IMG/VR virus record: IMGVR_UViG_3300030098_003782
Span: 1 to 64,000 of that record
Strand: one strand, 5' to 3'
Origin: a virus
Length of the DNA stretch: 64,000 nucleotides
Positions 3,702 to 48,100 of this stretch are shown piece after piece. Positions within the stretch are counted from its first letter, which is position 1. Every line of letters starts with the position of its first letter. A model generated the notes under the pieces. It made no database searches. It had not been told where the DNA came from and saw only the letters and a program-made list of their open reading frames with translations. A program made the position numbers and the translations under genes.

Positions 3702-5156
3702 TTAGGATGCTACACATGTAATATCGATAGAAGTATCAAATCTCTTAAGAGCGATACCAGCTGTCTTTAACATGTGAACACTTGCCCCGTCCACATCAGA
3801 TGCTCTAGCAGAAGTTGAATCAAATCCTCTAGGGACTACAGATCCAGCTACACACCATCTCATAGACTCACGACCTTTCTTAGAGATCATTTGTAGGTTA
3901 TTTTGACCATCATAATTTGATTGATCAACAAATACCATTCTATAAGATTCAAGAGAGTATCCAGTAGTTGGGTGCTTCGAACGAGCTTGAGCAACAGCAC
4001 CGTGATCAAATAGTGGTAATTTAACCACGTTCACAGTATGTCCATCAATATGATCGTACGAATTAAAGTAACCAGTTAAACCTAATGATCTACCAGAACC
4101 TGTAATAAACTTATGCTCACCTGTAGTCATCCAAGTATTTGTTTGACCTGCAAAGTGATTTTTAAGAGCCTCATCAAATTCTCTAGCACCACCAGTACCA
4201 GTATAAAGAGTTACTTGTTTTTTAGAAGCATCAGTCATTCCATAAAATAAATCACCGATGATGTTCTTTAATTTTGTTTCAGTCATTGTAGAGTAAGTAT
4301 CTGTTTCAACAATTTGCTCTAAAAGACCAGGACCTACGATTACAGGTTGTCCATTCTCATCTTTCATGTAAGTATGTCCGTTTGCATCATAAGTTTTTTG
4401 ACCATACCAGTAGTACATTTCACACTCTTCTTTAAAATCAAGCATGTGTAAGTACTCTTCATAGTCCATCCAAAGTTTAGTAGTTTTTCCACCTTTAGTA
4501 GGTAAAGAAAATTCAGCTACATAATCTTTAGCATTTCCAGACATGTGGTAAGATTTTCTAACTGTAGTTAGTTTATTTCTTACTTTACCTGGAGTTTCCC
4601 AGTTAGAAGCATTACCTCTAGAGAAGTCTACTCCTACAGGTGCATACATTTGAGCCCAAAGAGCTCCTGCTGTAATATCCGCTGCAGCTACTGTAGCTGT
4701 AGATACTGGGTTAACTAGTTGTAGTGTATATTTCCATGAAGTTCCTCCTGCAACTTGCTCAGGCTCTTTCATAATACGAGCTTGAGTACCTGCTTGAGAT
4801 ACTAATACATATGGAAATACAAAATGTTTATCAGGAAATTCCAACTCGAAAGTTGCTCCTCCTAAACCAACATTTGATGTTGTTGATGGCGTTGCTGCTA
4901 CTGGTCTCGTTCTCAATCTATGTGTTGCCACACGATACTCATATTCTAACCTGTCAATAGACTTGTAGTTACCAACACCTTCTGTTAGAAAAGATAAAGG
5001 AAATCTTTTATCGTCTTTACCTGCTAAATGAGTAATAATCGGAGACAGTTCAGTAGGTTTTGCCAACAACGCATTAGATAAACTGTTCATATCAGTCATC
5101 TGTGAATCATTGTAAAACGTCTTTTGGACGCTTATATTCGTTCCGTTTACTGCCAT
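3702..5156 (-). CDS. Major capsid protein (crAss-like, HK97 fold expected)
   Basis: A 484-residue protein, the typical length of crAss-like major capsid proteins, at the expected place after portal and scaffold-like genes. It starts MAVNGTNISVQKTFYNDSQM. It contains long mixed alpha/beta segments and a Trp/Tyr-rich central part around MDYEEYLHMLDFKEECEMYY. It has no signal peptide or membrane segment. Codon use is less AT-extreme than in neighbours, as expected for a highly expressed gene. It is isolated by short spacers on both sides: a small hairpin-forming 49-base spacer upstream and a terminator downstream. Identification rests on gene order, size and composition. Confidence 0.8.
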   Translation of the reverse strand: MAVNGTNISVQKTFYNDSQMTDMNSLSNALLAKPTELSPIITHLAGKDDKRFPLSFLTEGVGNYKSIDRLEYEYRVATHRLRTRPVAATPSTTSNVGLGGATFELEFPDKHFVFPYVLVSQAGTQARIMKEPEQVAGGTSWKYTLQLVNPVSTATVAAADITAGALWAQMYAPVGVDFSRGNASNWETPGKVRNKLTTVRKSYHMSGNAKDYVAEFSLPTKGGKTTKLWMDYEEYLHMLDFKEECEMYYWYGQKTYDANGHTYMKDENGQPVIVGPGLLEQIVETDTYSTMTETKLKNIIGDLFYGMTDASKKQVTLYTGTGGAREFDEALKNHFAGQTNTWMTTGEHKFITGSGRSLGLTGYFNSYDHIDGHTVNVVKLPLFDHGAVAQARSKHPTTGYSLESYRMVFVDQSNYDGQNNLQMISKKGRESMRWCVAGSVVPRGFDSTSARASDVDGASVHMLKTAGIALKRFDTSIDITCVAS

Positions 5157-5205: not shown

Positions 5206-6297
5206 TTAAATACTAAGATCTAATTCATCAATATCAAAATTCTTTGCTCTTCTAGAAGATTTACGAGCACTTTTTACACTCTCCTCATTTCTAGATATTT
5301 TATCTCTTAAAGATTTTGAATTTCTTGTTTTAGCTTTTGTATTTATAATTTGGTCTAAATTGAATCCTTTAAACATTAAATAGTCTATAGCTAATCTAGT
5401 TTCTAAAGCTGCTTCAGAATGATCTAAATCTCTCTGAGTATAGCCTTCTTGATTTATAGGTTTAGAAAGGTAATTAAAAAATTTACTTTTTTCTCTTTCT
5501 GGAACCGTCAAACCAGAAAACTCTTTACCATTTTCAAGTGTATCTGCTACACCTTTCCAAAATTCTTCTTGTTGTTGGTATTGTTGAGCTCTCATTTGTT
5601 TTTGCTGTTCAACCATTTGCATTTGTCGTTGCTGTTGTACTTTACCTAAAGCTACTCTTGCAGCCTCTGCTTTATCATGAAGTTTACCTGAATCTGAATA
5701 ATCACTAATCATCTCTTTAGTAAAATCTCTATCGTGTCCTTTTAAACTAAAATATTCTGCTAAAACAGCTTTTTGACTTCGAACATCATCAGACTCTATT
5801 TTAATTTTATTATAATCTAAATTAGGATCATAAGCTTGCATAAAATTTTGACTTTCTCCTCCATTTAAAACATACTCTAAATGTTGTCTTACTAATGGAA
5901 ATTTATTCATAACTTCATCAATACGCTCATCTGCTAAAGTTTGAGCAATATCTTTAGTCATATTAATTAATCCTTCAGAAGTATCTTCATATTCATTATC
6001 TGTTTCATATCCAAATGCATTTAAAATTTCTGATACTACTGTCGAATCTTCTGATACTTCAGTCTCTTCATCTTTTTCAATTTCTTCTTTAACCTCTTCT
6101 TTTACAGGTTGAGGTTCTTGATTTTCAACTTCATTAACAACTTCTTCTTGTTGAACTTCTTCTTCTTGTTCAACATTTTTTGGTTCTTCTGTAGTAGGTA
6201 TTTCTTCATCAATAGCTACTGTTTCAACTCCATCACCTCCAATTACATCATCGAAAGTAATATCATCTAATTGTATTTTTTCATTTTCTGGGTCCAT
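5206..6297 (-). CDS. Putative scaffold-like capsid assembly protein (363 aa)
   Basis: The first 100 or so residues are extremely acidic (repeated E, D, V, Q). The middle is helical, with a Gln/Met-rich coiled coil (QQQRQMQMVEQQKQMRAQQY, about residues 221-240). The tail is basic then acidic (ARKSSRRAKNFDIDELDLSI). An acidic N-terminus, coiled coil and basic C-terminus directly before the major capsid gene is the usual signature of an internal scaffold. No separate prohead protease is recognised nearby. A capsid-internal cargo protein is the alternative. Confidence 0.65.
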   Translation of the reverse strand: MDPENEKIQLDDITFDDVIGGDGVETVAIDEEIPTTEEPKNVEQEEEVQQEEVVNEVENQEPQPVKEEVKEEIEKDEETEVSEDSTVVSEILNAFGYETDNEYEDTSEGLINMTKDIAQTLADERIDEVMNKFPLVRQHLEYVLNGGESQNFMQAYDPNLDYNKIKIESDDVRSQKAVLAEYFSLKGHDRDFTKEMISDYSDSGKLHDKAEAARVALGKVQQQRQMQMVEQQKQMRAQQYQQQEEFWKGVADTLENGKEFSGLTVPEREKSKFFNYLSKPINQEGYTQRDLDHSEAALETRLAIDYLMFKGFNLDQIINTKAKTRNSKSLRDKISRNEESVKSARKSSRRAKNFDIDELDLSI

Positions 6298-6397: not shown

Positions 6398-7999
6398 TTA
6401 ACAATAATCACATCTATTTTTATTTAATTTTCTTACTCCTCCTTTTTTATATCTAGCTCCAAAACCAACACCAAAGTGTGGTTTACCTGTTTGAGGGTTA
6501 TATCCTGCAGATCCACTAATATTTAAAGGGCCCATAAGTCCTATCTGTCCAAATGCTCCTATATTAGTTAATTGTTTATTTGTTAAATCATAATTACCTT
6601 CAACGCCATATGAAAATTGGGGTCTACTACTTCCTCCTTTATTACCAAAAAATCCTCCCCAACCCGGTCGTCCTGCAAAATGATCTCCTGAATGAGCTAG
6701 TCTACCAGTAAGATTGTGAGTACCTTTTCCTTTAGTTGATAATGCGGGTGTTTTATAATTATATCCTACATCTAAATGTACTGGATTCCAATTCTTATCA
6801 TTAAGAAAACTCCAAAAACTACCTGGATCATTATACGGATTAAGTAAATGAGGTAAATTTGTTCTAAGATAACCCCCTATGTTAGCATGTACATCAGGAT
6901 CTTGATATGTACCTATTCTATTATCTACAACTTGTTGAAGATTATGATCCCATCCTGGTCCAAGATTTTGTGGTTGTCCCATAAATCCTTTACTAAAATT
7001 AAGTCCTCCTTTAAGTCCTAATCTAAATGGACTACCTATTGCATTTCCACACCCTTGACCTGATGATGTATCACATTCAAAATTAAGAGAATAGTTCATT
7101 AAATTATTTTTTACAGGATCAGGAGCTACTATATTAGTTGTTAATGGATCAGTATTAGGTCCTCCCTTTTGATATTTTCTTCTTAACCCACCCTTTTTAC
7201 TTATAGTTGCTTGTCCTCCAAAATCATCTGTTACTTGAAAAGGATCTAATTGGGTAGGATTAGATTGTTGAGCAACATTATTCATAAGTTCTACAATATC
7301 ATCATCTGAAAAATAATTAAATAATCTTTGTCCAATCCCTTCTGTTCCTTTTGCTTTTTGTAAATCTTCTAATGTAAATGGAGTAAACTCATCTCCAGTT
7401 GATTGAAACAAACCATCTCTTTCTAATTCATATCTTAATTGTATTAGATCTGCTCTTGTCTCTTGTGGTTTAGCGTCATGATGACTATAACTAATCATAT
7501 CATTATTTAACATTATATTTTTTGACGTAATATAATCTGATACATTTTCATCTAATGTCATTTGATTGTGATCAACATGTCCTAATTCATGAGCTAAAAT
7601 GCTATCGTGAGTTAAGTTTGTACCAAATTTTTTTGGAATATAACTTAATTCTGTCTCTGCATCATCCATATAAAGAATATTTTCTTTTTTATTAAAATGA
7701 GAACCTACATCTGATGCAATAGTACTATTAAATACTATATTAGGATTAGACATAAAATTTTTAGAAAGTTGATCTGCATACATTGGTTGAGCACCAACCT
7801 GATATCCCAGTCCACCATAATCTGCATGCAAAGAATTTGGTTTACCTGCAATATTTTTAGTTTTATCTAGTAGGTGATTATAATGACCACTACTAAGATA
7901 ATTACTATACCAATCTGTAACCCCAGAATAATCTGTTTCTGATACACCAGCAGTTTGATACATCCTAGGTCTTCTTTTATTTAATTTTTTCGTTTTCAT
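6398..7999 (-). CDS. Zincin metallopeptidase fused to a glycine-rich beta-barrel-like domain (533 aa)
   Basis: The N-terminal half carries a complete zincin motif, LAHELGHVDH (H137, E138, H141), with a downstream helix QETRADLIQLRYEL that can supply the third zinc-binding Glu. After the linker RRKYQKGG (about residue 280) the protein changes to glycine/aromatic strands such as GLKGGLNFSKG, LDVGYNYK, FGQIGLMGPLNISGSAGY and FGVGFGARY, which look like porin-type beta strands. It ends in KKGGVRKLNKNRCDYC. It overlaps the neighbouring 929-residue gene by one base and sits between the scaffold-like and portal genes. Probably a virion protein that processes other virion proteins or the host envelope. 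Substrate and location are inferred. Confidence 0.65.
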   Translation of the reverse strand: MKTKKLNKRRPRMYQTAGVSETDYSGVTDWYSNYLSSGHYNHLLDKTKNIAGKPNSLHADYGGLGYQVGAQPMYADQLSKNFMSNPNIVFNSTIASDVGSHFNKKENILYMDDAETELSYIPKKFGTNLTHDSILAHELGHVDHNQMTLDENVSDYITSKNIMLNNDMISYSHHDAKPQETRADLIQLRYELERDGLFQSTGDEFTPFTLEDLQKAKGTEGIGQRLFNYFSDDDIVELMNNVAQQSNPTQLDPFQVTDDFGGQATISKKGGLRRKYQKGGPNTDPLTTNIVAPDPVKNNLMNYSLNFECDTSSGQGCGNAIGSPFRLGLKGGLNFSKGFMGQPQNLGPGWDHNLQQVVDNRIGTYQDPDVHANIGGYLRTNLPHLLNPYNDPGSFWSFLNDKNWNPVHLDVGYNYKTPALSTKGKGTHNLTGRLAHSGDHFAGRPGWGGFFGNKGGSSRPQFSYGVEGNYDLTNKQLTNIGAFGQIGLMGPLNISGSAGYNPQTGKPHFGVGFGARYKKGGVRKLNKNRCDYC

Positions 8000-10788
8000 T
8001 ATCTAAGCCATTGTATTCTATAAGGATTCCATTCTACGTTATATGGTATTGGATTCCAATTTTCATCAAGATGCCCATAATTCCTACTAATATCTATTTG
8101 TGAATAAGGCTCTTTAGAATATCTTTTGATTAATCCACGTTCAGAACTGTTTGGTCCATAATGAGTATGATATTCAGGATCCCAATAGCTTTTATAATTT
8201 GATCGATCTGGCATTGCTCTTTCTTCTATTGTTCTATATAATCTAGATGGTACTTGTGTGATTTGGGACCACTTAGTTTTTACATTGGGATTAATATGTG
8301 CTAATTCTGCTATTAAATTATTCATATACAGTTGTTGTTTAAATCTATGTTTTATATCAGTTGGCCACGACATATTTTCTAAATTAGACCTATCACTTTC
8401 ACTTAATACTCCAAATTTAGGTATATGAATATTTCCACCTGATAGAACTTTATTTTCTAAGATATTGAATGGTTTAGATAACATTGGATACATTAAATTC
8501 TTTAGATATCCCATTTTAGATAAAACATTTGGGACAGCATGAGGTCTAAAATGTCCCTCTTCATTTGTTGGTAAATTCTTATGATTTGAATAATTATGTA
8601 TGTTCCCAACTCTAGATCCTTTTATCATGTTTAAAGCATCTTTCCAATGTAAAAATCCTTTTGACATATCGCTAAGTATATAAGGTGCATATTGTTGAAA
8701 ATTACCATCGTTTGAATATATATCATATACTTGTTTTTCGTTATCACTTAATTTATCATATGATTCTTTTGATAATGCAGATATTTCTATTTCAGGGATT
8801 AAATTCTCATATTTAGATTTTTTTTCTCCACCGTCTTTATGTTTATATGTACCATATTTACTTACTGTTGAATAAGGTTGCTTAAGAGATTGTTTAAGTA
8901 ATGCACGTTCACTACTATTTGGTCCGTAATGAGTATGGTACTCATGATCAAAATAGCTCTGGTAGTTTGAGTCATCTGGACTTTCTCCTTCTCTTATACT
9001 TCTTGATAATCTAGATAAAGGAGTTGTTAATTCAGACCATTTAGTTTTAGCTTCAGGATCAATATGTGCTAATTCCGCAAATAAAGTCCGCATATACTCA
9101 GGTACCTGCCTTTCGTATTCTTTGTCCCTCCTATTCCAAAACTCCTCTTCACTTATTGGGTAACGATCAGGATATTGATAATCCTCGTAGCTTTTTTTAA
9201 AACGTTGTGGAAGGTTAGGTATAGCAATATCTCCGGTTGGAAGGGTTTTTCTAAATACGTCATCCACAGTTCCTAATAATCCTGGTTTTAACGATTTTAA
9301 TCCAGGATACTCCCAGAATGGGGTCAACTTATTAGCGAGCGATGATTGAGCATGAGCTCTAAAATGTCCGTGTTCATCCATTTTCCATTTGTCACCGCTA
9401 GCTAAAGGTTTATTATATATATTTCCAACTCCAGATTTATCTACCATATTTATAGCATCTTTCCAATGTATATGCCCTTCTGTCCTATCACTTAATTGAA
9501 ACGGCATATATTGTTTAAAATCTTTAGAAGGAAGTGTATATGTATCATAAACTTGTTTTTGTGCATCACTTAATTTATTGTATGATTTATCTGACAGTGC
9601 AGATATCTCTACTTCAGGTATGGGGTTTCCACCATCTTCCATTTTTCTTAATCCACCTGTTTTTTTCTTTCTATTAAACAGTGGTATATTTAAACCAACT
9701 TGAAAACCAGGTTTTTTAGTAGCCAGATTATAATTATATTCTCCAGTTACTGGTCCAAGCCTCCCACTAATACCTACATGTTGTCCTGGTCTTAATGAAT
9801 GTTTAGTTCCCGCTTCATAAAACCCACTTAAATTCCATGGTATTATAGGAGCTGAATAACACATTCCTCCAAAACATCCTGCTTTACCTGGTCTACCAAC
9901 ACCTAAACTAAGTCTTGCAGATGCGTCTAATCCTTTAGGAAGTTTAATATTAGGCCAATTAATACCACCACTTGATTCAGTTGCAGGGACTTCAGTAGGA
10001 GGATCAACATTACCTGTACTAGGATCAAATATTCTAGCTGCAGTTGTTGTTGAAGGATATGATGTTGTAGGAGCTTTAAATCCATGTCCTAATTCTCCTT
10101 GAAATGATCCCATCCATCTAGTATCATAATCCCTCATATTATTAATTTTCCACTGAGGAGTTCCAAACCTATAATCCATATTAGCTCCAGTAAATATATT
10201 TCTATCATCTCCCCAACCTCTTGTTCCACGAATAGCTCCAATATCTAAATTGGGGGTAGAAAATCTATAGGTAGGAGAAAGAGATGCATTAATACCAGTG
10301 TTTCCACCCAAAACTTGGGATTTAAGACCAAATCCAGATGATCCTCCATATTGATATTTTCTGAATCCACCTTTTTGATATCCTGAAGGAGATTCTATTA
10401 TAGTTCCTTCATAAGGTCCAGTTGGTAAATCTTGTATTCCAGGAGGAACACCTTTATAACTTTCTACTAAATGACCTTGTTTATCTATCTTTTGAATATC
10501 TATTGGAGCTTTCATACCAACCGTATTAAAAGATGCTCCGGGTTGTACATCAGGGAAAGCCATAGATGCTTCAGTATTTCCTCTAGCATGTTCTTCTCTT
10601 AATCCTATTTCTTGTTCTTCTGGAGTATTAGCAACTTTCATTTCTTGTTCTTGTTGCTGTTTTTGCTCATATTCAGATATAAGATCTATACCTTGATCTG
10701 CAGCTTTAAACACATCAATTATACTGCCTGGAAAATTAGACAGTTTAATACGGTCTAATAAATCTCTTCTAGTCTGATTTGTTGGCAT
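7999..10788 (-). CDS. Large glycine-rich virion protein with a beta-barrel-like part and tandem degenerate-zincin repeats (929 aa)
   Basis: Residues 1 to about 140 are a charged leader. Then comes the linker GGFRKYQYGG, followed by glycine/aromatic strands to about residue 375 (for example GISGRLGPVTGEYNYN, GFQVGLNIPLF). After TGGLRKMEDGG there are two related copies of a domain of roughly 250 residues (about 384-655 and 660-915), each starting with an IPE(V/I)EISALS segment, containing AELAHI, and ending near EYHTHYGPNSSER. AELAH looks like HExxH with the first His lost, so the repeats are probably non-catalytic. The start overlaps the end of the portal gene by 20 bases. Likely a virion or ejected protein; function unknown. 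Confidence 0.6.
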   Translation of the reverse strand: MPTNQTRRDLLDRIKLSNFPGSIIDVFKAADQGIDLISEYEQKQQQEQEMKVANTPEEQEIGLREEHARGNTEASMAFPDVQPGASFNTVGMKAPIDIQKIDKQGHLVESYKGVPPGIQDLPTGPYEGTIIESPSGYQKGGFRKYQYGGSSGFGLKSQVLGGNTGINASLSPTYRFSTPNLDIGAIRGTRGWGDDRNIFTGANMDYRFGTPQWKINNMRDYDTRWMGSFQGELGHGFKAPTTSYPSTTTAARIFDPSTGNVDPPTEVPATESSGGINWPNIKLPKGLDASARLSLGVGRPGKAGCFGGMCYSAPIIPWNLSGFYEAGTKHSLRPGQHVGISGRLGPVTGEYNYNLATKKPGFQVGLNIPLFNRKKKTGGLRKMEDGGNPIPEVEISALSDKSYNKLSDAQKQVYDTYTLPSKDFKQYMPFQLSDRTEGHIHWKDAINMVDKSGVGNIYNKPLASGDKWKMDEHGHFRAHAQSSLANKLTPFWEYPGLKSLKPGLLGTVDDVFRKTLPTGDIAIPNLPQRFKKSYEDYQYPDRYPISEEEFWNRRDKEYERQVPEYMRTLFAELAHIDPEAKTKWSELTTPLSRLSRSIREGESPDDSNYQSYFDHEYHTHYGPNSSERALLKQSLKQPYSTVSKYGTYKHKDGGEKKSKYENLIPEIEISALSKESYDKLSDNEKQVYDIYSNDGNFQQYAPYILSDMSKGFLHWKDALNMIKGSRVGNIHNYSNHKNLPTNEEGHFRPHAVPNVLSKMGYLKNLMYPMLSKPFNILENKVLSGGNIHIPKFGVLSESDRSNLENMSWPTDIKHRFKQQLYMNNLIAELAHINPNVKTKWSQITQVPSRLYRTIEERAMPDRSNYKSYWDPEYHTHYGPNSSERGLIKRYSKEPYSQIDISRNYGHLDENWNPIPYNVEWNPYRIQWLR

Positions 10789-13192
10789 TCTTTGCTTTTG
10801 CTTGTTTATCTGCTATTTCTTTTTTTGCTCTAATATCTCTATTTGCTGTATCTCTTTTAATATATTCTGCTTCTCTTTTTGTACTATTACTTTCTATTTC
10901 ACTGTCTCTTTTCATTATATCTGCCTCTCTAGAAAGCTGATTAGATTCTCTATCTATTTCTTCTTTTGCTTGATCTCCTCTAGATTTTTCAATTAACTCT
11001 TGTTCTCTTAATGCTAATTCTTTTTCTTTTATTTCAAAATCTCTAACCATTTTTTCTAACTGTAAAGACTCAACTCCGGTAGATGCCTGTTGTTTAGACT
11101 CAGCGTTTATTAAAGCTATTTCAATATCTTTTTGACGATCTTTTTCGTTTTCAATATTTTCTGCTTCCAATTCCATTTGTTTCATCTGAGTCTGATGTTG
11201 TAATGCTTGTTGTTGTGCTTGTTGCTGTGCCTGTTCTAATTCAGCTGCAGCTTTATCAGCTTTTTTAAGATTATCTTTAATTTGTGTAAAGCTGTCTGAA
11301 TCTAACATTTCTGCAATATCTCCCGGTTTAGCACCATTCTGCATCATAGCCTGAGTAAGTCCTCTAATGTTTTGTAACTTCTCAGCATCTTTACCTGCAT
11401 CAGAAACAAATATACCATAATTAGTTTCCATGTGTTGCATAGTATCAATATTTAAAAAGTCAGTGGTACCGTCTGGCATTACATATGTAGACTTTTTACC
11501 TGTTAACCATGCTTCTTTAGAATAGTCTAATAAAGCTTGAAAATCTCTTTGTTCCATTCTTTCAAATTTTCTAAACAGATCTTCAGTAATATGTGAGGAC
11601 TGTAATATAGCCTGTTGTGAAGATGCTTTACCTTCATAAGCTCCTATCTCTCCTTGTCTTTGTCTACTTACTCCTGAAATCTTTTCCCATTCCTGTAAAA
11701 TACTTTCTAGTAAAACAACATATTGTTGAATAGTTTTAATAGACATATCCATTACAGATTGATGTTGAGGATTTAATTGAATACCTTCTTTATTATAATC
11801 TACCCAAGCAATACCTGTACCTTCTACATAATACATAAATTTATCCATGTCCCATTTTTTAGGGATCATATTAATATCAAATTGTGCAATAATATCTTTA
11901 GATCTAGCAATAGCAAGTTCTAATCTATATTTATAAATATTATAATTTAGTTGATAAGGTATCCCTAATTTAACTAATGAAATATTTTTAGCGTTTACAT
12001 CTGAATATCTTCTACCATTAATAGGTAATTTACATCTAGAAGGGTTATCAAGAGAAAGTCTTTGATTTGCAATTGGATTTATATTAATATAAAAACGACC
12101 ATCTATCCTTGTTCCCTCCCAAACTTCATTAATCCATTTCCATTCTATTTTAGCACCAGCTTCTTTTAATTCTGCAGGTAATCTAAATCCATCTGGAACT
12201 TCTTGTTCTTCTATAGTGCCTGTCATTGGATCCATATAAGCTAAAAATCCTATTCTTTTTCTAGATTTCCAATAAACATTTACAACTTCTACTAATCTAT
12301 TTCTAAAAGAATTTGCATCTTTATTAGAAGAGTGCGCATATAAAAATGATACATCACTTTCAGAATGTCTAGGTTCTTCAAGTTCTAATACTTGTTGTTC
12401 TGATAAAGAATCATAATAATGATCTATTACAGTTGATGCGTGTACATATTTTCTAACTATAGCCCAATCTCCATCTTCAACAAATTCTAAATCAGGATCA
12501 AGATCATAATCTACATCAATAGGGTTAAGTATTTCATAAAAAGGTTCACCATTTCTTACTCCTCTATGAGTATAAACTTCTCCTGCTACTAAATAATGGA
12601 ACCATGCTTTTTGTATCTTATCATAAACTTCTTGATCTTGAAAAATAAAATTTAAAGCTTTTTGTCCCAGTAAAGCTCTTTGATCAACATAACTACTTTC
12701 AAACATTTCTGCTATATGTTGAGGCATAGGATTTTCTTGTTGTTGTTGTTCTGGACTCATGCCCATATCCTGCCCCTGATTTTGAACTGCTTGCATAAAA
12801 TGCAATTGTAAATTCATAAAAATTGCTTGAGATTTAGCTTGTTCTTTTATAGTTGTAGTATCTGCATTTTGTACTGTAACAGTATAATTGAGAGGCCTCT
12901 TAGATTTTTCCCCTAGAAGAAGATCAATTATGGGTTTGATAATGGGGTAGTTACGCATTTCAGAAGGAAAGTTTTTACGGGATTTACCGTAAGGTTTTAA
13001 TACGTACTTGTAATCAGCCTCATCAATTATACCATTATAGTAATCATATAGTATTTTAAGTTCATCTTTTCTTTGTGAATAGCCTGAACCAGAATCAGAG
13101 AGATCTATGAATGCTTCAACGCATTGTTCTCCCCATTTTTTTGTTTTTTTGCTTATAGGCAGTTTTTGCCTAGGTATTTTATCATATCCCAT
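10769..13192 (-). CDS. Portal protein
   Basis: An 807-residue protein following the terminase and SET-domain genes, which is the portal position in crAss-like phages, and of the large size typical for that group. The N-terminal two thirds is mixed alpha/beta with aromatic segments. A KISGVSRQRQGEIGAYEGKA segment (about residues 505-524) resembles the conserved part of phage portals before the central helix. From about residue 640 on it is a long Gln/Glu/Lys/Ala-rich coiled coil (QAQQQAQQQALQHQTQMKQM), which would extend into the head. It forms the dodecameric DNA gate of the capsid by family knowledge. Confidence 0.8.
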   Translation of the reverse strand: MGYDKIPRQKLPISKKTKKWGEQCVEAFIDLSDSGSGYSQRKDELKILYDYYNGIIDEADYKYVLKPYGKSRKNFPSEMRNYPIIKPIIDLLLGEKSKRPLNYTVTVQNADTTTIKEQAKSQAIFMNLQLHFMQAVQNQGQDMGMSPEQQQQENPMPQHIAEMFESSYVDQRALLGQKALNFIFQDQEVYDKIQKAWFHYLVAGEVYTHRGVRNGEPFYEILNPIDVDYDLDPDLEFVEDGDWAIVRKYVHASTVIDHYYDSLSEQQVLELEEPRHSESDVSFLYAHSSNKDANSFRNRLVEVVNVYWKSRKRIGFLAYMDPMTGTIEEQEVPDGFRLPAELKEAGAKIEWKWINEVWEGTRIDGRFYININPIANQRLSLDNPSRCKLPINGRRYSDVNAKNISLVKLGIPYQLNYNIYKYRLELAIARSKDIIAQFDINMIPKKWDMDKFMYYVEGTGIAWVDYNKEGIQLNPQHQSVMDMSIKTIQQYVVLLESILQEWEKISGVSRQRQGEIGAYEGKASSQQAILQSSHITEDLFRKFERMEQRDFQALLDYSKEAWLTGKKSTYVMPDGTTDFLNIDTMQHMETNYGIFVSDAGKDAEKLQNIRGLTQAMMQNGAKPGDIAEMLDSDSFTQIKDNLKKADKAAAELEQAQQQAQQQALQHQTQMKQMELEAENIENEKDRQKDIEIALINAESKQQASTGVESLQLEKMVRDFEIKEKELALREQELIEKSRGDQAKEEIDRESNQLSREADIMKRDSEIESNSTKREAEYIKRDTANRDIRAKKEIADKQAKAKNANKSD

Positions 13193-37597: not shown

Positions 37598-40500
37598 CTA
37601 GAGATTAAACCACTTAATAGCCTCTCCAGGAGTTGTACTAGTCCCAACACCTTTTAGTATAGGAACAGCCTTTTCTAGTTTATTATCCCATTTAAGTTCT
37701 CCTTTTTTATTTTTACCTGATTTTCTTTGGTAGTATATATTTTTTTCAGGTATTAATCCTCCCATATTACCAGTACCAAAATAATACATATTTTCTAAAG
37801 TAGATAAAGCAAATGCAAAAATATTTTCTATAGGTCTAACTGTTGCAGTAGGAGATTTAGTTAATCTCCATGTTTCTTCAGGATTTACATAAAATAAAAG
37901 TTCTGATCGTAGTCTTCTGTTTTGATACAATAAGAAATTAGTTGCCCAAGAATTAGGTTCTTCATCATCAGGATCTATTAGTAATGCCGCTGCAAAAGAA
38001 AGTAAAAATGATCCAGCAAGAGAATTTATTTCTATTGCTACTCTTCTTATATTTTGTTTTTCTAGTTCAGACATATTTTTATATTGATTGCTTTGAGATT
38101 TAATAGAGTCTCTAAGCATTTTATAAAAAGTAACATAAGTTCCTTGAGTCAATGCTCCTAATTCATGATCTGAATGCCATGTTTCTCCATGTCCAAATCT
38201 TCTTCTGTATCCAGGAACCATCCATCCTCTAAATAACATTACCAATTTACCATACCAATGTCTTTTTAAATGATTAGAATCAAATTGATTATATACACCA
38301 TTAGTACGTTTATTTATACCGTGAAGTCTATTCATAAATCTAACCTTATCAAAATTAGCTACTCTTGGATCTATTTTAAGTCTTCCATTAACTTGACTAT
38401 GAGCATCTAACATTGTCATATCAGATCCATCAGGATTTTTTAATTGTTTACCATTTTTATCTTTAGCTTTCATAAACTCAAGCATTGCCATACCTCTAGT
38501 AACTTGCACCTCATGCTCTGCTCCATGTTGTAAGAAAAACAATGCATCTGAAGAAAATAATTTTTTAGCATTTGAACCTGTTACATTTTTACCGTTAGTT
38601 TTAGCAAATTGTCCTTGAATCATATCATACTCATTTAACATTTGGCCTACAAATGTAGTAGGAGCTATTTTACCTAAATCTCCAATTCCTCCACCTTTAC
38701 TCCAATAAGTTGTTTTTGCTTTTAAAACTGATTTTCTATCTACAAACTGACCGGCCGCAGCTTCACTCCATCCTATTATATTATCAAGTACGTTTTGGTT
38801 AACTCCTTGCAATAAGTTAAAAGATAAAGCATTCATAGCAGTATATCCGGCTAATTTACCTGATAATTTATTAGCTTCAAACTGTTTACCTAAAAATGTA
38901 AATTGTTTTTTAATTGTTTTTTCTCCATATATATTTTGATCTAAAAAAGATGTTAAATGTTTAAAATTATTAGTTTCATGACCTTCTTTAGACCTAGGTT
39001 GTTCAATACCTAAACCTTTTGCTAAACTATTTATAATCTTTATACCTGATGGAGAAGTTAAATCTGTTTCTCTAGATTCAATTATATCTGTCATGATTTG
39101 TATTTCTGCTTGAATACTTGCTTTTGCTTCGTAAGTATTTGCCATAGCCACAAATTGCAGTAAACTAGATGTTATATCTAAACTAATATCTTTTTTGTCA
39201 ACTGCATTAGTATAAAATGCAGGAACAACTTTACGCTGTTTACCTCCAATGGTTTCCCATTGCTGTCCGTATATATGCTGATCTGTTTCTGTAATATCTG
39301 TACCATCAATCCACCATTCTTTTAATGTAGGTAATACTCCTTTTTCTATAAGCATGTCTTTATCAACTTTTCTTATTGAAGGTAACATATACGACATTTC
39401 ACTAAAACTATCTCTTCCTAATTGATGACCTGCGGATCCTAATTTATCTTGATGCTCTTTATATATTTTTAAAACTCCTTCATAGAATTTTTTAGATTTA
39501 GGATTAGCCATAATAGCTTTATACTTTGGATTCGTATAGTCTGTTCTTTTTCTCCCGTCAGACATTTTTTCTCCTCGTGAGGGTCTTAATAAAGATCCTT
39601 TAGGAGTTAATTGTGATGGATATCTAGGATTAACATAATAATTAGTTTGTCTCCAATTATCTAAAATACTTAATTCCATTTCATAAGTAGTCAATTGATC
39701 TACTTCTAAAGCGGTAATTGTATTATCATCTACCTTTTTTTGGAATGGTCTCATTACTTTATAAAGATCTTGAATCTTTTTTTCATGCTTTTCCATTATT
39801 TGTTGAGCATCTTTTTTAGGTACTGTATTTTCTCTTCTCCATTTACCCATAGCCTCTCCAAATGCTCTTCGTGTTAATCTGTACAATTCATCTCTAGTTT
39901 GAGCTCTGTATACAATTTTACCATTAACTTTGTAATTATCTATACTATTTAAATAGTCTTCAAATAACTCATCGCTCTCAAAATCTTTTCTTTCTCTAAA
40001 ATAAGTTTTATTTTTTGCTTCTATAACTGCTTTTTGTTTATTAATTTGGTACCTATTCATATCATCTGGTTGTACTATACTAGCTCTATCAATTTGTTTA
40101 TAAGTACCTTTTTCATCTCTCACCCAAGTTTTAACACTTTCAAGCATTTCTCCATATAATTTTTCAACATTATTAATAGACTTTCCTTCACTAAATTCTT
40201 TATACAGATTCATTATTTCATATGCAGTATCTCTACTTTTATCTTCGCCTTTTATTAAAGAGTCTTTAACCGCTAGTGCAAATAATTGAATAGCATTATC
40301 ATTAGAATATACTAATGGATCTAACCAAAATGAAAACTTACTTGCATCTTTAGAAGCTCTAGTTAATATTTCAGTTAAAGCCTGTTTATGCATTTTTTTA
40401 CTTTCTAACTGTTCTTTTACTAATTCAATAAGATTTTCATCATATTCTTCTTTAGTTATCCTATTTGTTCTAAGATCATTTTGTAAAGAAACAAATTTAT

Positions 40501-42130
40501 TACTTTTTTTATCTAGATGTCTAGTAGCAGCTACTACTTTATTTTCTAAAGTTTCTTGTTCATCAATATTTTGTATTAAACTGTCTATATTTTCATTTAC
40601 TTCTTGAGAAATATAAGGAGTTAAAAAATCAGCCATTGCTGGAATAACTATTCTGAAATATTGATCTTGTAAAGATCTTCTTTGTCTTACTACAGCGCCT
40701 AATTTATCATATGTAGTTTGGAAAGCAGTTGTATGTTTTGCCATGCCTTGCTTTTCTGTAGTAAATAATGTTTCTAATCCTTCTAAAATATCAAATCCTC
40801 TAATATATTCATTTAATTCTGAAACACTAGAAGCATCTTTAGAATCTAATTTTTCACCATTTTTTATTTTATTTTCTAATAATTGATATTTATTAGCAAT
40901 ATTAGCTGTAATTTTAGCAGACATGTCTATAAAAGATATAAAATCCTCTAATGTCTTTACGCTTTCTAAAGTTTCTTCTAGAGATTCAGCTCTTGCTTGA
41001 CTTGCAGCATCATTACGTTGTTCTGCTATTTTTTTAAGTTGTCTAGTATATATTCTAACTTCATCTATTTTCTTTTGTAAAGAATTTTTGTCTCTAGACT
41101 CTTGAGTAAATCCACTTATATTACCAACAAAAGCCTCAGATCTTAATTCTCCAGCAAACATTTGTTCTGCTAATACGGCAGCAGCATTTTGCCTTATTCC
41201 AAACATTTTTCCAATAGATCTAAATATTTTATTTAATAATATTCTAAATTTAGATGGATTTTTTCTTTCTATTTTAGCTCCTTCTATACCTATAGCTGTA
41301 GCTAATATTTCTTTATCTAATTTAACTCCATCTAAATGAGGATAAGCATCTATTACATCTAAAGCTATAGAAGATCCTTGTAATTGTTTTAAAGCCTGTC
41401 TTATTAAAGGATTTTGCATTCCTAATAAATCTACGTATATATGCCCAAATTCATGATAAACACTATCATCTTGTAGATATTCATTATTTAATCTAATGAC
41501 AGCAGATCTAGGTCCCACACCTCTAACATCAGCAGAAACATTTTCTGCTAAATCATTAGTAAATTCTATTCTAGTTTTTATTCCTACGTTTTTAAAAACA
41601 TCTTGTAATTTAGAAGCTTTTTTAGCAGACTCACTTAAAGCCTCTTCTTTTCCATATAAAGCTCTATTTTCTGATGTATTTTCTCTTCTAACCTGCTCAG
41701 AAAGAGATTGTTCAGCTAATTTCATTTCTCTTTCTTCCTTTTGTCTAGCTAATAATTCCTCTTCAGCTTGAATTTCTGCAATATCTTCAGGAAAAGTCAT
41801 ATTTTTGATATTGTTAAGAACTGCAGTATTTATTTTAAAGGTATACTTTTCATTTCTTTCATGTCCAAATCTATTTCTAGTTTGCCCTTTATACTCATAG
41901 TCAATTAAATTAGGATATCTTCTATTTATTCTTCTAACATGATTTAAAGCTATACTAGAGTCTTCTCCTTGATAAATATACATTTGTCCTTTATATTGCT
42001 GTATAACGTTATACTCTTTTAAAATATCATGTATCATACCTAAATTAGGATTTCTTTCCTGTAACGCATTATATAAATGCGTTAAAAATTGATTAGGTCT
42101 ACCATGTAAGTAATATCTACATCTTTTCAT
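37598..42130 (-). CDS. Giant virion protein with zincin motif (1510 aa)
   Basis: Residues 1-110 form a small basic domain. A Glu/Arg coiled part follows, then a zincin motif VYHEFGHIYVDLLG (His226, Glu227, His230) with KEILATAIGIEGA downstream as possible third-ligand helix. Most of the remaining length is charged helix. Near the end is a hydrophobic segment (INSLAGSFLLSFAAALLID). It starts one base from the RNA polymerase gene, so the two are coupled. By analogy with crAss-like phages it is probably packed in the virion and ejected. The peptidase could open the envelope or release proteins from the capsid. Confidence 0.6.
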   Translation of the reverse strand: MKRCRYYLHGRPNQFLTHLYNALQERNPNLGMIHDILKEYNVIQQYKGQMYIYQGEDSSIALNHVRRINRRYPNLIDYEYKGQTRNRFGHERNEKYTFKINTAVLNNIKNMTFPEDIAEIQAEEELLARQKEEREMKLAEQSLSEQVRRENTSENRALYGKEEALSESAKKASKLQDVFKNVGIKTRIEFTNDLAENVSADVRGVGPRSAVIRLNNEYLQDDSVYHEFGHIYVDLLGMQNPLIRQALKQLQGSSIALDVIDAYPHLDGVKLDKEILATAIGIEGAKIERKNPSKFRILLNKIFRSIGKMFGIRQNAAAVLAEQMFAGELRSEAFVGNISGFTQESRDKNSLQKKIDEVRIYTRQLKKIAEQRNDAASQARAESLEETLESVKTLEDFISFIDMSAKITANIANKYQLLENKIKNGEKLDSKDASSVSELNEYIRGFDILEGLETLFTTEKQGMAKHTTAFQTTYDKLGAVVRQRRSLQDQYFRIVIPAMADFLTPYISQEVNENIDSLIQNIDEQETLENKVVAATRHLDKKSNKFVSLQNDLRTNRITKEEYDENLIELVKEQLESKKMHKQALTEILTRASKDASKFSFWLDPLVYSNDNAIQLFALAVKDSLIKGEDKSRDTAYEIMNLYKEFSEGKSINNVEKLYGEMLESVKTWVRDEKGTYKQIDRASIVQPDDMNRYQINKQKAVIEAKNKTYFRERKDFESDELFEDYLNSIDNYKVNGKIVYRAQTRDELYRLTRRAFGEAMGKWRRENTVPKKDAQQIMEKHEKKIQDLYKVMRPFQKKVDDNTITALEVDQLTTYEMELSILDNWRQTNYYVNPRYPSQLTPKGSLLRPSRGEKMSDGRKRTDYTNPKYKAIMANPKSKKFYEGVLKIYKEHQDKLGSAGHQLGRDSFSEMSYMLPSIRKVDKDMLIEKGVLPTLKEWWIDGTDITETDQHIYGQQWETIGGKQRKVVPAFYTNAVDKKDISLDITSSLLQFVAMANTYEAKASIQAEIQIMTDIIESRETDLTSPSGIKIINSLAKGLGIEQPRSKEGHETNNFKHLTSFLDQNIYGEKTIKKQFTFLGKQFEANKLSGKLAGYTAMNALSFNLLQGVNQNVLDNIIGWSEAAAGQFVDRKSVLKAKTTYWSKGGGIGDLGKIAPTTFVGQMLNEYDMIQGQFAKTNGKNVTGSNAKKLFSSDALFFLQHGAEHEVQVTRGMAMLEFMKAKDKNGKQLKNPDGSDMTMLDAHSQVNGRLKIDPRVANFDKVRFMNRLHGINKRTNGVYNQFDSNHLKRHWYGKLVMLFRGWMVPGYRRRFGHGETWHSDHELGALTQGTYVTFYKMLRDSIKSQSNQYKNMSELEKQNIRRVAIEINSLAGSFLLSFAAALLIDPDDEEPNSWATNFLLYQNRRLRSELLFYVNPEETWRLTKSPTATVRPIENIFAFALSTLENMYYFGTGNMGGLIPEKNIYYQRKSGKNKKGELKWDNKLEKAVPILKGVGTSTTPGEAIKWFNL

Positions 42131-42131
42131 A

Positions 42132-45100
42132 TTATATTGATTTTATATTTACACATCTTTTTTTAGCATCTTCATTATCCTCAACAATTTCATCTATTCT
42201 TTGTTCATGATATTTTGCTAAACCTGGTTGAATATTTTCTCTACCTGCTTGATTACCTTGTATTACAGATTTATCTACTCTCATACCTTCAGAATTATAA
42301 ATATTTAATTCTTTTAATCCATAAGGTATTCCTTTAGTAGTAGATCTTTTATATAAAACATTATCACCTACTTCGTCTACTTTAACAAATAATTTAGTAC
42401 CTTGTGGAGAAGACACTTTAAAATAATCTGTTGTTTTATTTAAAATCTTAGAATATATTCTACTATCTTTTTTATTTAGTTGAATTGTATTTGCAGCTAC
42501 AGACTCTTTATTAACTTTAATTTGATTAACTACATCAGTGTAATAAAAATTACGTATAAAATCATGTGCAAAATTATTACCTAAATATTCTATTTCATCT
42601 AATAATTCAAATTGCTCATAAAAATAAGTTGATGAATTACTTAATACTTCTACAGGTATTATATCTATAAAACTATCATGTCCCGGAGTAAATCCATGTG
42701 ATAATAAAGATATACGTATAAAATCAGTAGCCAACTCTCTTATTTCTGCTTCTGAATCTAAAAATAGATTTTTTAATCCTAAAGAAAATAAATCTGTTTC
42801 ACTTTTTGTAAATGAATTAATATTTTGAAATTTAACTCTAGTTAATATTGAATCTTCCTTAAGATTTTCTGGATGTTCTATTATATTTTTTATAAACATA
42901 TTTTCCTCTAATCTAGGAAATTTAGCTTTTAAATCTTGTAGTTTTGCTAATACATTTGTTTTTGGTCGTATTAATAGATTTCTTATATTATCTTCTGTAA
43001 ATACTGTAGATTTTAAAGGGCTATTTTCTTTAGACATTATTTCTAATAATATAGCTTCTTCTATAAGTCTATGATCAACATCAGATAAATTATCTTTATT
43101 TAATAATGTTCTTATTTGCTCTTTAACTTTAATTACAGATCTTTTATTATGAATAAAAAATTCTGATCCAAAATCTAATAATTTATCAATTAACTGTTTG
43201 TAAGATTTTTGTAGGGGATATGATTCTCCTTCTAAAACACTATTAAGACCTCCAATTAAATCGTTTTGTACTAAAACATCTTTTCTTGATTTATATGATA
43301 ATAATCCACCAAAATTAGCCTGATCTGCACCTTTATCTTGATTTAAAAGTACATAAGCACTTGTTAAATCTCTTCCTGTTTTATGGAAAGATAAGAAATT
43401 ACTAAGATACTGAAGTTGATCTTCATGAATTATATTTTCTTCTGATATATTACTTAATTTTTCCGTAGACATTTCTACAAATCCAAAATCTGAAACTTCT
43501 GAAAATGGCATATCTATATGCTGCCCAACAGTATATTTTGATGTATAGGTATTCCAAGTTTCACTTACAGCTTCGTATAACATATTAGGTGTATATTCAC
43601 CATCTTGATATACTCTAGTTAACATTCTAATAACAGGTTGATTTAAAAAGTCATGCGTAACATATTCATTAATACCTAAAGAGTCAAATAAAATACTAAT
43701 AGGCGCAGTTAAAGCATTATCATTTCTAAAATACATATCTGGATTTTTAGCATTATCTACTGCAGAACTAATACGCTTAGAAATATTATATTCAATCAAT
43801 TCACTTTTTTCACCTCTTGTACGATTAGAAGTAGTTTTATCATCAAATATAGATTGTAAATTATTATATTCTTGACCATCTATAACAGGAGCTAAACCAG
43901 CTTTTAAATGTAATTGAGAATAAACTGCAATATTTTTACCGGTTGCGGCATTAGCATATATTCCAATACCACTGTTACCATCTTTATTCATTCTTTCTAA
44001 TTGAATTTCAGAAAAAGAATCATTATGATCAAATTCTTCTTTTAGTCCTAAAGTTTCTTTAACTTGATTTGCTATAAATGCAAGATTAGGAGAGTCTAAT
44101 GGGGTTACTACCTCTCCAAAATGTGCAAAAGATTTAAGAATAGATTCTGCTAAATCAATTATTATATTTTCTAACTCAGGTCTTTCTAGTTTTTCTAATG
44201 CTGAATAATCTACTTCTGGGCCTATAAATAAATTTCTATAATTTACATTTATTTTTTCCTGTCTTCCAGTCTCAGGGTTTTTTCTTGTATTAGGCTTCAT
44301 TAATTGTAATGTATCAATATCAAAATCAGCTCCCATTTGAACTGTAATACCTGCAGGAACCATAATTGCTTGATCATAATTTCTAGGTAATATATACTTA
44401 ATAATCATAGGAAGCATAGAATTTTTACCTTGAGTAGGAATACGATATCCTATTAATATTCTTAATTCTTCAGGCATTGTGGATAAATCTTCCCCAGGTT
44501 TAAATCCATATTGAGCAGCTAGTTCTTCACTAATAGCTACTTCTGCATGTTTTATAGTACCATTTTCATTTCTAATAAATTTTAATTCTGTCCAAGAGCT
44601 TGGTAAACCCGTAGCTTGATCCCATGTTATATGGCCTCCTAATTCTGCTATTTGTTTAGCACTTCCTCCATTAATTGTTTGTTTAACAATATCTTTTTTA
44701 AGCATCCCCATAATAATACTTTCAAACTTTCGTTTTAAAGTTGGAAAAGCTAAAGGTATTTTAAATCTATAGTTTCCTTTTTCTGTTTTTTCAATCTCTA
44801 AAGCTTTTATATAATTTTCAGCTAATTCTCTATCTTTAATTTCTTGTATTAATCTGGTTCTTAAATTTTTAAGTAAATTTAATTGTGCTGTATTTTGGGC
44901 TTCATATCCAACTGCTTTTACTAAATCTCCATATCCTAAATCATTCATAAGCTTTTTATAGCTTTTATCAATCATATTTGATACAGTATTATGATATAAA
45001 TCAAATACCTGTCTTCCATTTAAAGCTCTTTCATTAATTCTATTTTGATTTACAATATAATTTAATGCGGGATCATTTAAATCTATATTAGATATAATAC

Positions 45101-48100
45101 CTAACATAAATTGTCTACCCAATAAACCATAATCTTTAGTTTTTTCAGGTATTATTTGTGGTATTCTAAATCCTGATCCAGGTAAAGTAGTTACATCCAT
45201 ATTAGTTAATCTGTCTAACACTTGATCAGTATCATTTAAATTTTCTACTCCTGTATAAGCTAATTTTTTAGTACTTACAGTATTTAATACATGCATAGTA
45301 GGTAATTCTGCAAAATTTCCTTCACCTTCTAATCTTTGTCTAATTAACTCTGCAGTAGGATTATTTAATGTAAATTCTTCTGTTAATACCATATAAGAAT
45401 TTTTTGTATTTTGAGGCATCATCATACCATTTTTTTCAACCATAGCATCAAAATATCCTTTTATAGGCTCAAGTCTTCTACGCCTTCCACTATTATCCCT
45501 AAAAAATTTATTTCCAGATCTTCCATTTTTATAATTTTGATATGCCTCTTCATCTTCTTTTTGCCACTCTCCTTTACCTTCTTTAAAAGCTTTATAAAAA
45601 TCTATAGATACAACTCCAAAAGCATCTGACTTATTAGACCTTTTATATGAATTTCCTATTTTTTCTGCATTTATATCTCCTTGAGCTTCTAAAGTTGCTG
45701 TTATAGAATCCCCAATTTGCTCATAAACTACCGGAGTAGTAAAAAAGTCTTCCATTAAACCTTCATTAAACTGTCTATAAAATCCATATCCAGGATCTTT
45801 TAAGTCTCCTTTTAATAATAATTTATACCCAGGAGTTTCCATATTACCAAATCTTTTAGAAAAATCTGTATAACTTTTATTAAAAGCTATCCCTCCTCTA
45901 GTAAATTTTTGTAGTTCAATCTTATGAACCATATTATTAAACTCATATTGTCTAAATAATTCTTCAAGACTAGAATATGGATTAGAAACAGATTTTTTAA
46001 GTTTATCTAATATACCTTTTGATTGATAATAAGCCATATTTTTCTTAGCTCTTTCGTTTAAAGCATCTATAACTTTTGCAACCTCATTGTTTAAAGCATC
46101 ATTAACAGCTTCTCTATTAATAACCATCACATCTCCAGAAAGATAATCTTTCCAGTCTACATCACTTAAAAGATATTGTATTTTTGTTTGAAATACAGCT
46201 GAATTTTCAACCGGTGTTAATTGTAACAATTGAAAAGCTTTACCATCTTTACTTCTTGGGGATTCTTGATAATGAAATCCAGGTATTAACTGATTATCTG
46301 GTAATCCTCCTTCTTCTACTGATTCTGTTTGTAAATCTGCTTGTTGATATCTCATCAAGTCTTGAATTATAAGACCTTTAATTATATCTTTATCAGATAA
46401 ATTAAGTTTAGTTTTAATAGTATCTATAGAAGGAACTGTATAAGCTTTTAACTTAGATCTGTCAGAAAGATTAGGTACAAACATTTTAACGTATCCTCTT
46501 TTTCCTGATCTATCCATAAAAGCTCCAAGTCTTATATAAGCAGATTGTATCTCATTCATTTCACCAAAATCAAAAGATCTTCCACTAAATTTTACATATC
46601 CATCAAATATTTCAGTTGTTAAATTTGCTCTAGCTTCATTAGAAAAATTACCTGCAAGACCTCCATATATTGTTAACCATAAAGATCTGGCTTTAGAATT
46701 ATATTCTGCAGGATTATAAAATACATCTTTTAAAAATGGTTCAAAAAACTCTCTATTATTACCTTTAAGATTTAAAATTAAATCATCCATAGGAGTAGGC
46801 ATATTTATAGGATGTATTGAATTATTTTTAACATTTAAAAATGATGTAAATAAATCTACTTGTCCAGACATTGCTATACTAGAAAATTTAGATAAAATAC
46901 CTCTATAAGTAGTATATATATTTTCTCCTTTATTTACACCTTTTACAAGTCTAGATACTTCTGTCGCAGTTCCATTATCTAGCATATTTTTATATAATGC
47001 AACTCCTTTTAACTTTTGACCTGTTTTAGAAAATTCGGTAGAACCTTCATTAAAATATGTTGTTAATAATTCTTTAGATTTTTGAGGTGAGCTTGTTATA
47101 TCAACTCCTAAAATATGTAAAAAATTAATTAAATCTTCTATTCTTTTTTCTGGTAAAGGTTTAGACGGATTATCATTATAAATTTTATTCATAGATTTAA
47201 AAGTTGTATTTAATTTAGATACTCTTTTTTTATTTGTACTATAAATTAAATTATCCCCAACTTGTCTTATACTGTATAAATGTCTTTCATTTGGAAATCC
47301 TTTATGCTGCACAGCATTTGTTCTCCATTGATCTATAATTCTAGTTTCTACCGCATTTCTATTAGAATTCATAAACTGTAATCCTTCTGTAGTTTCTTTA
47401 GCTAAGAAAAAATTATTTTTACTTTGCATAAAAGTAAATGCAAAACCAGCTCTTAAATTATTATCTGTAGTTTCTCTTAATCGTTTAACAACTTCAGCTA
47501 TATGAGGTTTTGTTTTACCTGCAATATCTAATCTGTTAAGTATTATTGGAAAGGATGTTGAATCTGCTAATATACTTTGAATGTCTTTATAGACCGTATC
47601 AAAAGGTAAGTAATTTTCATAGCCTAAATATGAAGATTCTCCTGAAGGAATAGTTGATAAAAATTCTTTTATTTGAGAATTTATTTTATTTCTCATATCT
47701 TCTTCTACTCTAGATCTAGAATAAATTCTTTCATAAGCTGTTCCCTCCTCTACCTCTTCTAATATAACTTCTCCAAGTTTTAATTTTAATCCATAATTTA
47801 CTAAACCATCCTGCATTAAACTTTCAAATCCTACTCTTCTTAAATTTTCAAGTTCTGAATTATCAATTATATCATTCCAATTTGTATAAATATTTAATAA
47901 ATATTCATGATTATTTTGATTAGGATACATATGAGTTTTAGGCTCTCCTTTTATAGGTCTAACAGATTGTTTTTTAATTTGATTATTAAATAATATTTTG
48001 TCATCTCTTTTTTCATACCATTCTCTTAATACTTCTAATTTCTCTGCTCCCTCTATGGGTAGTCCCTCATTAGTAGAAAAAGCCTCTCTAAGAACTGAAT

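Follow-up and report, generated by a model that had tools for sequence, protein, structure and literature searches.

Multi-domain injected proteins, known from phages and from conjugative elements, are termed polyvalent proteins (Iyer et al. 2017, PMC5512222), and in phi-crAss001 the protein gp45 has been described as cargo protein C1, stored in the capsid and the tail, with its N-terminal part in the tail (PMC10172136). CrAss-like phages have to bring their DNA, giant polymerase and other proteins across the Gram-negative envelope. Here we analyzed positions 1 to 64,000 of the 68-kb IMG/VR virus record IMGVR_UViG_3300030098_003782 (this 64,000-nucleotide stretch is termed the window), which comes from a marine crAss-like phage, and three of its proteins, designated P1, P2 and P3, that contain long glycine/aromatic segments. 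Our data favor the view that these are polyvalent proteins carried as virion cargo and probably released into the host at infection, and that their outer-membrane-barrel modules are exchangeable. If true, outer-membrane barrels delivered by a phage would represent a novel kind of tool, for entry or for modification of the envelope.

The open reading frames on which the original prediction was built were confirmed: P1 (533 amino acids (aa), 6398–7999), P2 (929 aa, 7999–10788) and P3 (755 aa from its ATG, 60039–62306), all on the minus strand, as are all window features given below. Its label of a capsid cassette holds for P1 and P2, which are encoded between the portal and the scaffold and major capsid proteins; P3 has a muzzle protein of the tail end on one side and the RNA-polymerase block on the other. 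The glycine/aromatic segments occupy residues 281–520 of P1, 149–388 of P2 and ~123–405 of P3, with glycine contents of 16.7, 16.2 and 17.0%, respectively, and each forms one module of a modular protein. P1 starts with a zincin-like metallopeptidase module (residues 1–280, 7160–7999; phrog_24249, E 2e-10) with a basic RPRMYQTAG tag ahead, and the HELGH zinc-binding motif can be read from its translation (residues 137–141, 7577–7591). The barrel-like module of P1 (family B1, 6440–7159), recognized by its alternation pattern, its homologues and the barrel-matching model of its homologue in a related locus (L010), follows, and the protein terminates in the linker/tail KKGGVRKLNKNRCDYC (6401–6451).

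P2 is built from a conserved DUF192-like N-terminal domain (residues 1–148, 10345–10788; PF02643, E 2e-4), the linker QKGGFRKYQYGG (10342–10377), a barrel-like module of family B2 (9625–10344), which ends in the beta-signal-like QVGLNIPL and is followed by the linker KTGGLRKMEDGG, and two copies of a module that we call ISAL. Module B (residues 656–929, 8002–8823) is a tandem duplicate of module A (residues 389–655, 8824–9624), with 44–49% identity, and the module also appears in L010 and three other related loci (L016, L023 and L025). The ISAL domain (8002–9624) had no match in the PDB or in Pfam, and contains invariant His and Glu residues. The DUF192 assignment of P2 scored 21.9 bits, below the gathering cut-off of 27 bits, while the aligned domains of six relatives (L006, L007, L008, L023, L032 and L034) scored above it (28.8–31.4 bits). 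In P3, a barrel-like module of family B3 (61092–61940) is inserted between KYQNAG and RRETGG linkers, ahead of a conserved cargo core with a glycine-zipper hydrophobic segment (residues 406–755, 60042–61091), which is 31–36% identical in three related contigs.

The original prediction held that these segments resemble outer-membrane barrels and are unlike ordinary phage proteins, and this was supported by their alternation, a beta-signal-like end, structural matches to barrels only and weak family matches. Alternation was scored in a 9-residue in/out window and expressed as z against shuffles of the same composition, for six barrel-like segments of five families. The P1, P2 and P3 segments scored 5.1, 2.5 and 2.4, and three more from relatives 4.4, 3.4 and 2.9, with OmpA 1–192 (4.3), OmpF (1.6) and OmpX (1.4) as reference barrels. 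The 14 control segments (the remainder of P1, P2 and P3, capsid, portal, cargo, RNA polymerase and Cellulophaga phage tail/fibre proteins) gave z of −1.9 to 1.0, and so the pattern exceeds what composition or chance would yield. A second sign of a barrel, independent of alternation, is the end motif polar-x-G-x-x-hydrophobic-x-hydrophobic, observed at 12 of 19 barrel module ends versus 1 of 92 other module ends and present in its strict form in the barrels of P2 and P3. The barrel segments are also related to one another by hhalign (P1–P2, E 1e-5 over the last 46 columns; P2–P3, E 4e-5), the alignments being shallow and these E-values accordingly rough.

Family matches add a joint argument: five segments of four families seem to point to outer-membrane proteins, each match being weak on its own. 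The P3 barrel matched TIGR03519 (PorP/SprF) with E 1e-3 and 18.7 bits, short of the curated cut-off of 90.55 bits, and further sub-cut-off matches linked family B5 to OMP_b-brl and YadA_anchor (E 0.005–0.008), B1 to OMP_b-brl (0.015) and B2 to OEP (0.056); two additional weak matches went to unrelated families. Family B5, represented by L052:14838–15128 and its relatives, is a ~97-residue module whose sequence looks like a helix with ~4–5 strands after it; it has weak YadA_anchor matches and might form a trimeric barrel. Searching PDB sequences with the barrel profiles or the P3 barrel recovered no meaningful relative, GenBank phages yielded no significant tblastn match to P2, to P3 or to the barrel segments by themselves, and a single-sequence scan of IMG/VR found no relative of full-length P3 and matched the P3 barrel only to locus L100, via the linker region.

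AlphaFold2 was run with 9 sequences on L010 residues 146–622, which hold homologues of the P1 barrel (65–70% identical, compared to 33–41% in L007 and L008) and of the P2 barrel (55–60% identical; homologues are also present in L102 and L006). All 50 of the 50 best PDB matches of the resulting low-confidence model were transmembrane barrels (BamA/LptD, BtuB, VDAC and porins). The top VIA-align match was the designed ten-strand barrel TMB10 (Z 13.6, root-mean-square deviation 2.6, 131 residues), followed by OMPLA, Pla and a Vibrio porin (Z 9–10.5), and the second barrel of the model matched FapF and OmpG (Z 8–9). From this low-confidence model the barrels are predicted to be small, with about 8–10 strands. 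In structure prediction, proposed as a check of the original prediction, barrels alone were found among the best matches, but confidence was low and the P3 model could not be used. Matches in a viral structure library were weak (none with E <1e-3); two of them, one to a protein from the virus NIOZ-UU157 and one to a protein labelled ‘large polyvalent protein associated domain’, are leads only.

Using the portal, we gathered 80 IMG/VR loci, 38 of them with complete slot genes, and compared the region that follows the portal gene. In loci of sufficient length the order was portal, a slot encoding proteins of 143–1553 aa, scaffold (~50–75% identical) and capsid (82–92% identical). Most slot proteins begin with a DUF192-like domain 53–80% identical to that of P2, one subgroup having a shorter, related N-terminus, and most complete ones terminate in a GG-basic tail similar to that of P1 (GG denoting a glycine pair). 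Across the relatives, the modules in between comprise zincin-type HExxH, lysozyme/transglycosylase (PF18013, PF01464), ADP-ribosyltransferase (PF18760), ISAL, hydrophobic helical segments and barrels, the latter of at least four sequence families. Effector domains were identified in relatives (PF18760 ART-PolyVal with E 3e-14 in L013, lysozyme2 in L016 and SLT in L032 and L034); among recognized polyvalent effector domains, the window proteins themselves show the zincin only. The modules are joined by basic linkers of the ‘KKGG-x-K’ type, with the consensus Y-K/Q-K-G-G-hydrophobic-K/R-K derived from 125 linkers, to which the P2 linker QKGGFRKYQYGG conforms. Only 4 of the 44 window proteins contain this motif: P1, P2, P3 and a 1086-aa protein.

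The slot modules are exchanged at these linkers. The DNA of L010 and L102 is 96.4% identical over the 5.6 kb up to where the DUF192-like domain ends and over 3.7 kb from the slot end on, and between these borders a single barrel module of 0.7 kb (96%) and linker stretches of 55 bp are all that the two loci share. When all loci were considered, 55 distinct similarity breakpoints lay past the conserved N-terminus; 31 of these were no more than 36 nt away from a GG codon pair, compared to 10.8 expected and a maximum of 22 in 20,000 simulation runs. This association is compatible with targeted recombination or with tolerance of linker joints only. A role of the linker as a conserved DNA recombination site is disfavored as the main cause of its conservation, since the glycine codons vary (the commonest pair, GGT-GGA, accounts for 40 of 125), which argues for selection on the protein motif; short linker DNA is nevertheless common to the swap borders of L010 and L102. 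Proteolytic cleavage at the GG pairs is a further conceivable role of the linker.

Several slot proteins carry further recurring elements. Many (L052, L055, L056, L057, L019, L035, L039 and L049) share a conserved short terminal tail, for example GGYKKKCKYGCW, for which a capsid retention signal and a processing site are possibilities. The second slot protein of L010 (15172–17445, 757 aa) has an N-terminal module with ILMQHGTS and VVCYMGSCF stretches that may be a caspase-like cysteine peptidase, and the slot proteins of L065, L049 and L061 contain hydrophobic segments of a pre-toxin-like kind, along with a small domain ending in WKN (WPSIFQDEEGNWFKGN...FAREGNWKN) that is repeated across loci.

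The search for homologues in relatives, also put forward with the original prediction, recovered barrel modules in 14 of the 38 loci with complete slot genes; the other 24 had none that we could recognize. The smallest slot protein is a bare 143 aa (L075), the barrel of the closest P3 relative (L100) is only a short remnant, and other P3 relatives match the core only, and so the barrels are dispensable. Such loss and reduction are not expected of a conserved, required channel. Moreover, lysozyme, zincin or ADP-ribosyltransferase modules can stand in the place of barrels, and so the barrel looks like one optional tool among several that act on the host envelope.

Several observations suggest that P1, P2 and P3 are probably packed in the virion. 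The zincin module of P1 is 27% identical to gp041 of Cellulophaga phage phi4:1 (equivalent to gp042 of phi17:2), whose GenBank record reads ‘structural protein’ based on tandem mass spectrometry (MS/MS); gp041 has the architecture lysozyme-GG-zincin-GG-zincin, and it is the second zincin that matches P1. The core of P3 aligned with residues 101–221 of phi-crAss001 gp45 (hhalign E 2.7e-5, probability 74%), and both genes follow a muzzle gene. In addition, a phrog_3108 transglycosylase-like module is found both in the 1086-aa protein and in the portal-slot protein of L023, indicating that the P3 region and the portal slot draw on one module set. The restriction of the linker motif to four window proteins and the ART-PolyVal domain in a slot protein point to the same class of cargo.

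In the mechanism we propose, each protein consists of a conserved core (DUF192-like in P2, glycine-zipper in P3) and accessory modules on basic GG linkers, the barrels being one class in an exchangeable set together with zincins, lysozymes/transglycosylases and ADP-ribosyltransferases. The protein would exit the particle unfolded and get to the periplasm, where the host beta-barrel assembly machinery (BAM) would fold the barrel module into the outer membrane, and the inserted barrel might anchor the linked enzymes at the envelope, alter the host outer membrane, or both. Barrel-like sequence, modular architecture, exchange at linkers and dispensability were observed here; beyond them, our confidence falls along this chain, from virion packaging through release, along with the DNA, into the host envelope and BAM-mediated folding to enzyme anchoring or outer-membrane modification. 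A more specific version, in which BAM inserts the injected exchangeable barrels from the inside, anchoring fused lysozymes or proteases, with the cassette being shuffled at GG linkers beside the portal, is possible rather than probable. A number of points weigh against this explanation as a whole. We know of no established path to BAM for a beta-barrel arriving from outside. The MS/MS virion evidence is for the phi4:1 homologue, not for P1, P2 or P3 themselves. The strict end motif is missing from the P1 barrel and from its three nearest homologues, all of which end in Tyr or Phe (Tyr in P1), and no barrel segment reaches a curated family cut-off. Finally, the mean predicted local distance difference test score (pLDDT) of the L010 model was 40, with ~50–74 over most of the first barrel and <45 in the second, and that of the unusable single-sequence P3 barrel model was 32.

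The low model confidence and the failure to reach any curated cut-off would also suit segments that are soluble or virion-structural Gly-rich beta domains, such as a lumen domain or a fibre-like sheet mimicking membrane strands, and fibres too have Gly-rich beta repeats. We consider this rather unlikely, given that the phage tail/fibre controls had z of only −0.5 and 0.7 and that both the structural matches and the distribution of the end motif single out membrane barrels. Alternatively, the barrels, whether delivered or expressed, could act in superinfection exclusion by keeping competitors out, or could jam BAM or a receptor, instead of aiding entry. Being optional and highly variable, they behave as arms-race modules would, and the weak similarity of the P3 barrel is to an outer-membrane protein of Bacteroidota type IX secretion, PorP/SprF; yet in what are probably virion proteins they are fused to modules that cleave peptidoglycan and protein, which fits early delivery better than late expression, and such a blocking role appears unlikely.

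The original prediction went further and proposed that the phage supplies, with these barrels, an outer-membrane channel of its own for DNA or the giant polymerase. The location of P3 between the muzzle and a transglycosylase-bearing cargo protein and the resemblance of its core to phi-crAss001 C1 (PMC10172136) are in line with this idea, as is the finding that the N4-like phage DEV ejects outer-membrane pore proteins, which led its authors to suggest that crAss-like phages may do so too (PMC10925440). The absence of the barrel from most complete-slot loci and from other P3 relatives, its remnant state in L100 and the slot proteins as short as 143 aa speak against the proposal, as do the small size of the barrels, ~8–10 strands being too narrow for DNA unless oligomeric, and the helical nature of characterized phage outer-membrane ejection pores of this kind (PMC10925440). 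We therefore did not retain the channel, which we now regard as improbable. It is more improbable still that the proteins are tail or head decorations acting outside the cell: the record of phi17:2 gp042 is annotated ‘tail protein’, but the lysozyme, zincin and ADP-ribosyltransferase modules do not fit such a function, and neither does the resemblance of the P3 core to a cargo protein kept inside the particle.

Around P1, P2 and P3, this crAss-like phage encodes portal, major capsid, terminase, muzzle-type and polymerase-type proteins. The portal protein (10769–13192; phrog_6547, E 1e-127) forms the upstream border of the variable slot, and a putative scaffold (5206–6297), constant in position, the downstream border, followed by the major capsid protein (3702–5156; phrog_11589, E 7e-91); the terminase matched phrog_6681. 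P3 adjoins the C-terminal part of a muzzle/virion structural protein (62308–63942; phrog_15100, E 1e-43), whose L100 homologue has 1821 aa. On its other side lies the 1086-aa cargo protein (56760–60020), which carries the basic GG linkers as well and has a lytic-transglycosylase-like module at its N-terminus (phrog_3108) and a MORN repeat (PF02493). Context for the cargo block is provided by a giant virion RNA-polymerase-type protein of 2789 aa (42132–50501), recognized by tblastn: its last 622 aa match proteins annotated ‘putative RNA polymerase’ in gut crAss-like phages, with E between 4e-5 and 4e-4. The 1510-aa protein beside it (37598–42130) has HEFGH, a possible further zincin motif, which fits the metallopeptidases that accompany virion polymerases. 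The DUF192-like profile recovered no relative when bacterial genomes were scanned with it, and the host taxonomy therefore remains inferred from relatives.

Compared to the cargo proteins C1 and C2 of phi-crAss001 (gp45 and gp46; PMC10172136), the P3 region is similar in its position after the muzzle gene, its glycine-zipper core and its basic N-terminus before the first GG. It differs in that P3 and the 1086-aa protein, into which the gp45 counterpart appears to be split, carry accessory modules; upon sequence inspection alone, neither a zincin motif nor a barrel-like module was seen in gp45. The gene of phi4:1 gp041/phi17:2 gp042, unlike that of P1, adjoins the muzzle homologue and not the portal, and no barrel-like module was recognized in its product. 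The podovirus outer-membrane ejection pores T7 gp14 and DEV gp72/gp73 are, as proposed for the barrels here, phage-supplied envelope proteins carried in the virion, though they are helical, conserved and required, whereas the barrels described here are beta by pattern and model, optional and variable. The likeness of the P3 barrel to PorP/SprF of the type IX secretion system and of B5 to YadA-type anchors is weak and far below cut-offs, and we claim membership in neither family.

The closest parallel is with the polyvalent proteins (PMC5512222), which also combine disparate activities in one polypeptide, use zincin, lysozyme and ART-PolyVal domains, are encoded by late virion genes and are predicted to be injected with the DNA. 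Such combinations were found here in P1 (zincin and barrel), in P2 (DUF192-like domain, barrel and two ISAL modules) and in the relatives (lysozyme, ADP-ribosyltransferase and zincin). The main text of PMC5512222 does not contain the word ‘barrel’ and mentions no crAss-like phage, and in our partial coverage of the literature we came across no account of crAss-like cargo with beta-barrel modules, for which we claim no priority. The hypervariable slot beside the portal provides a map of what these phages bring into their hosts, and because some relatives naturally have the barrel and others lack it, the function of the barrels can be tested. To summarize, multi-domain injected proteins are already known, and what sets this locus apart from the described polyvalent proteins is the presence of barrels, a recurring GG linker and exchange at one syntenic slot beside the portal.

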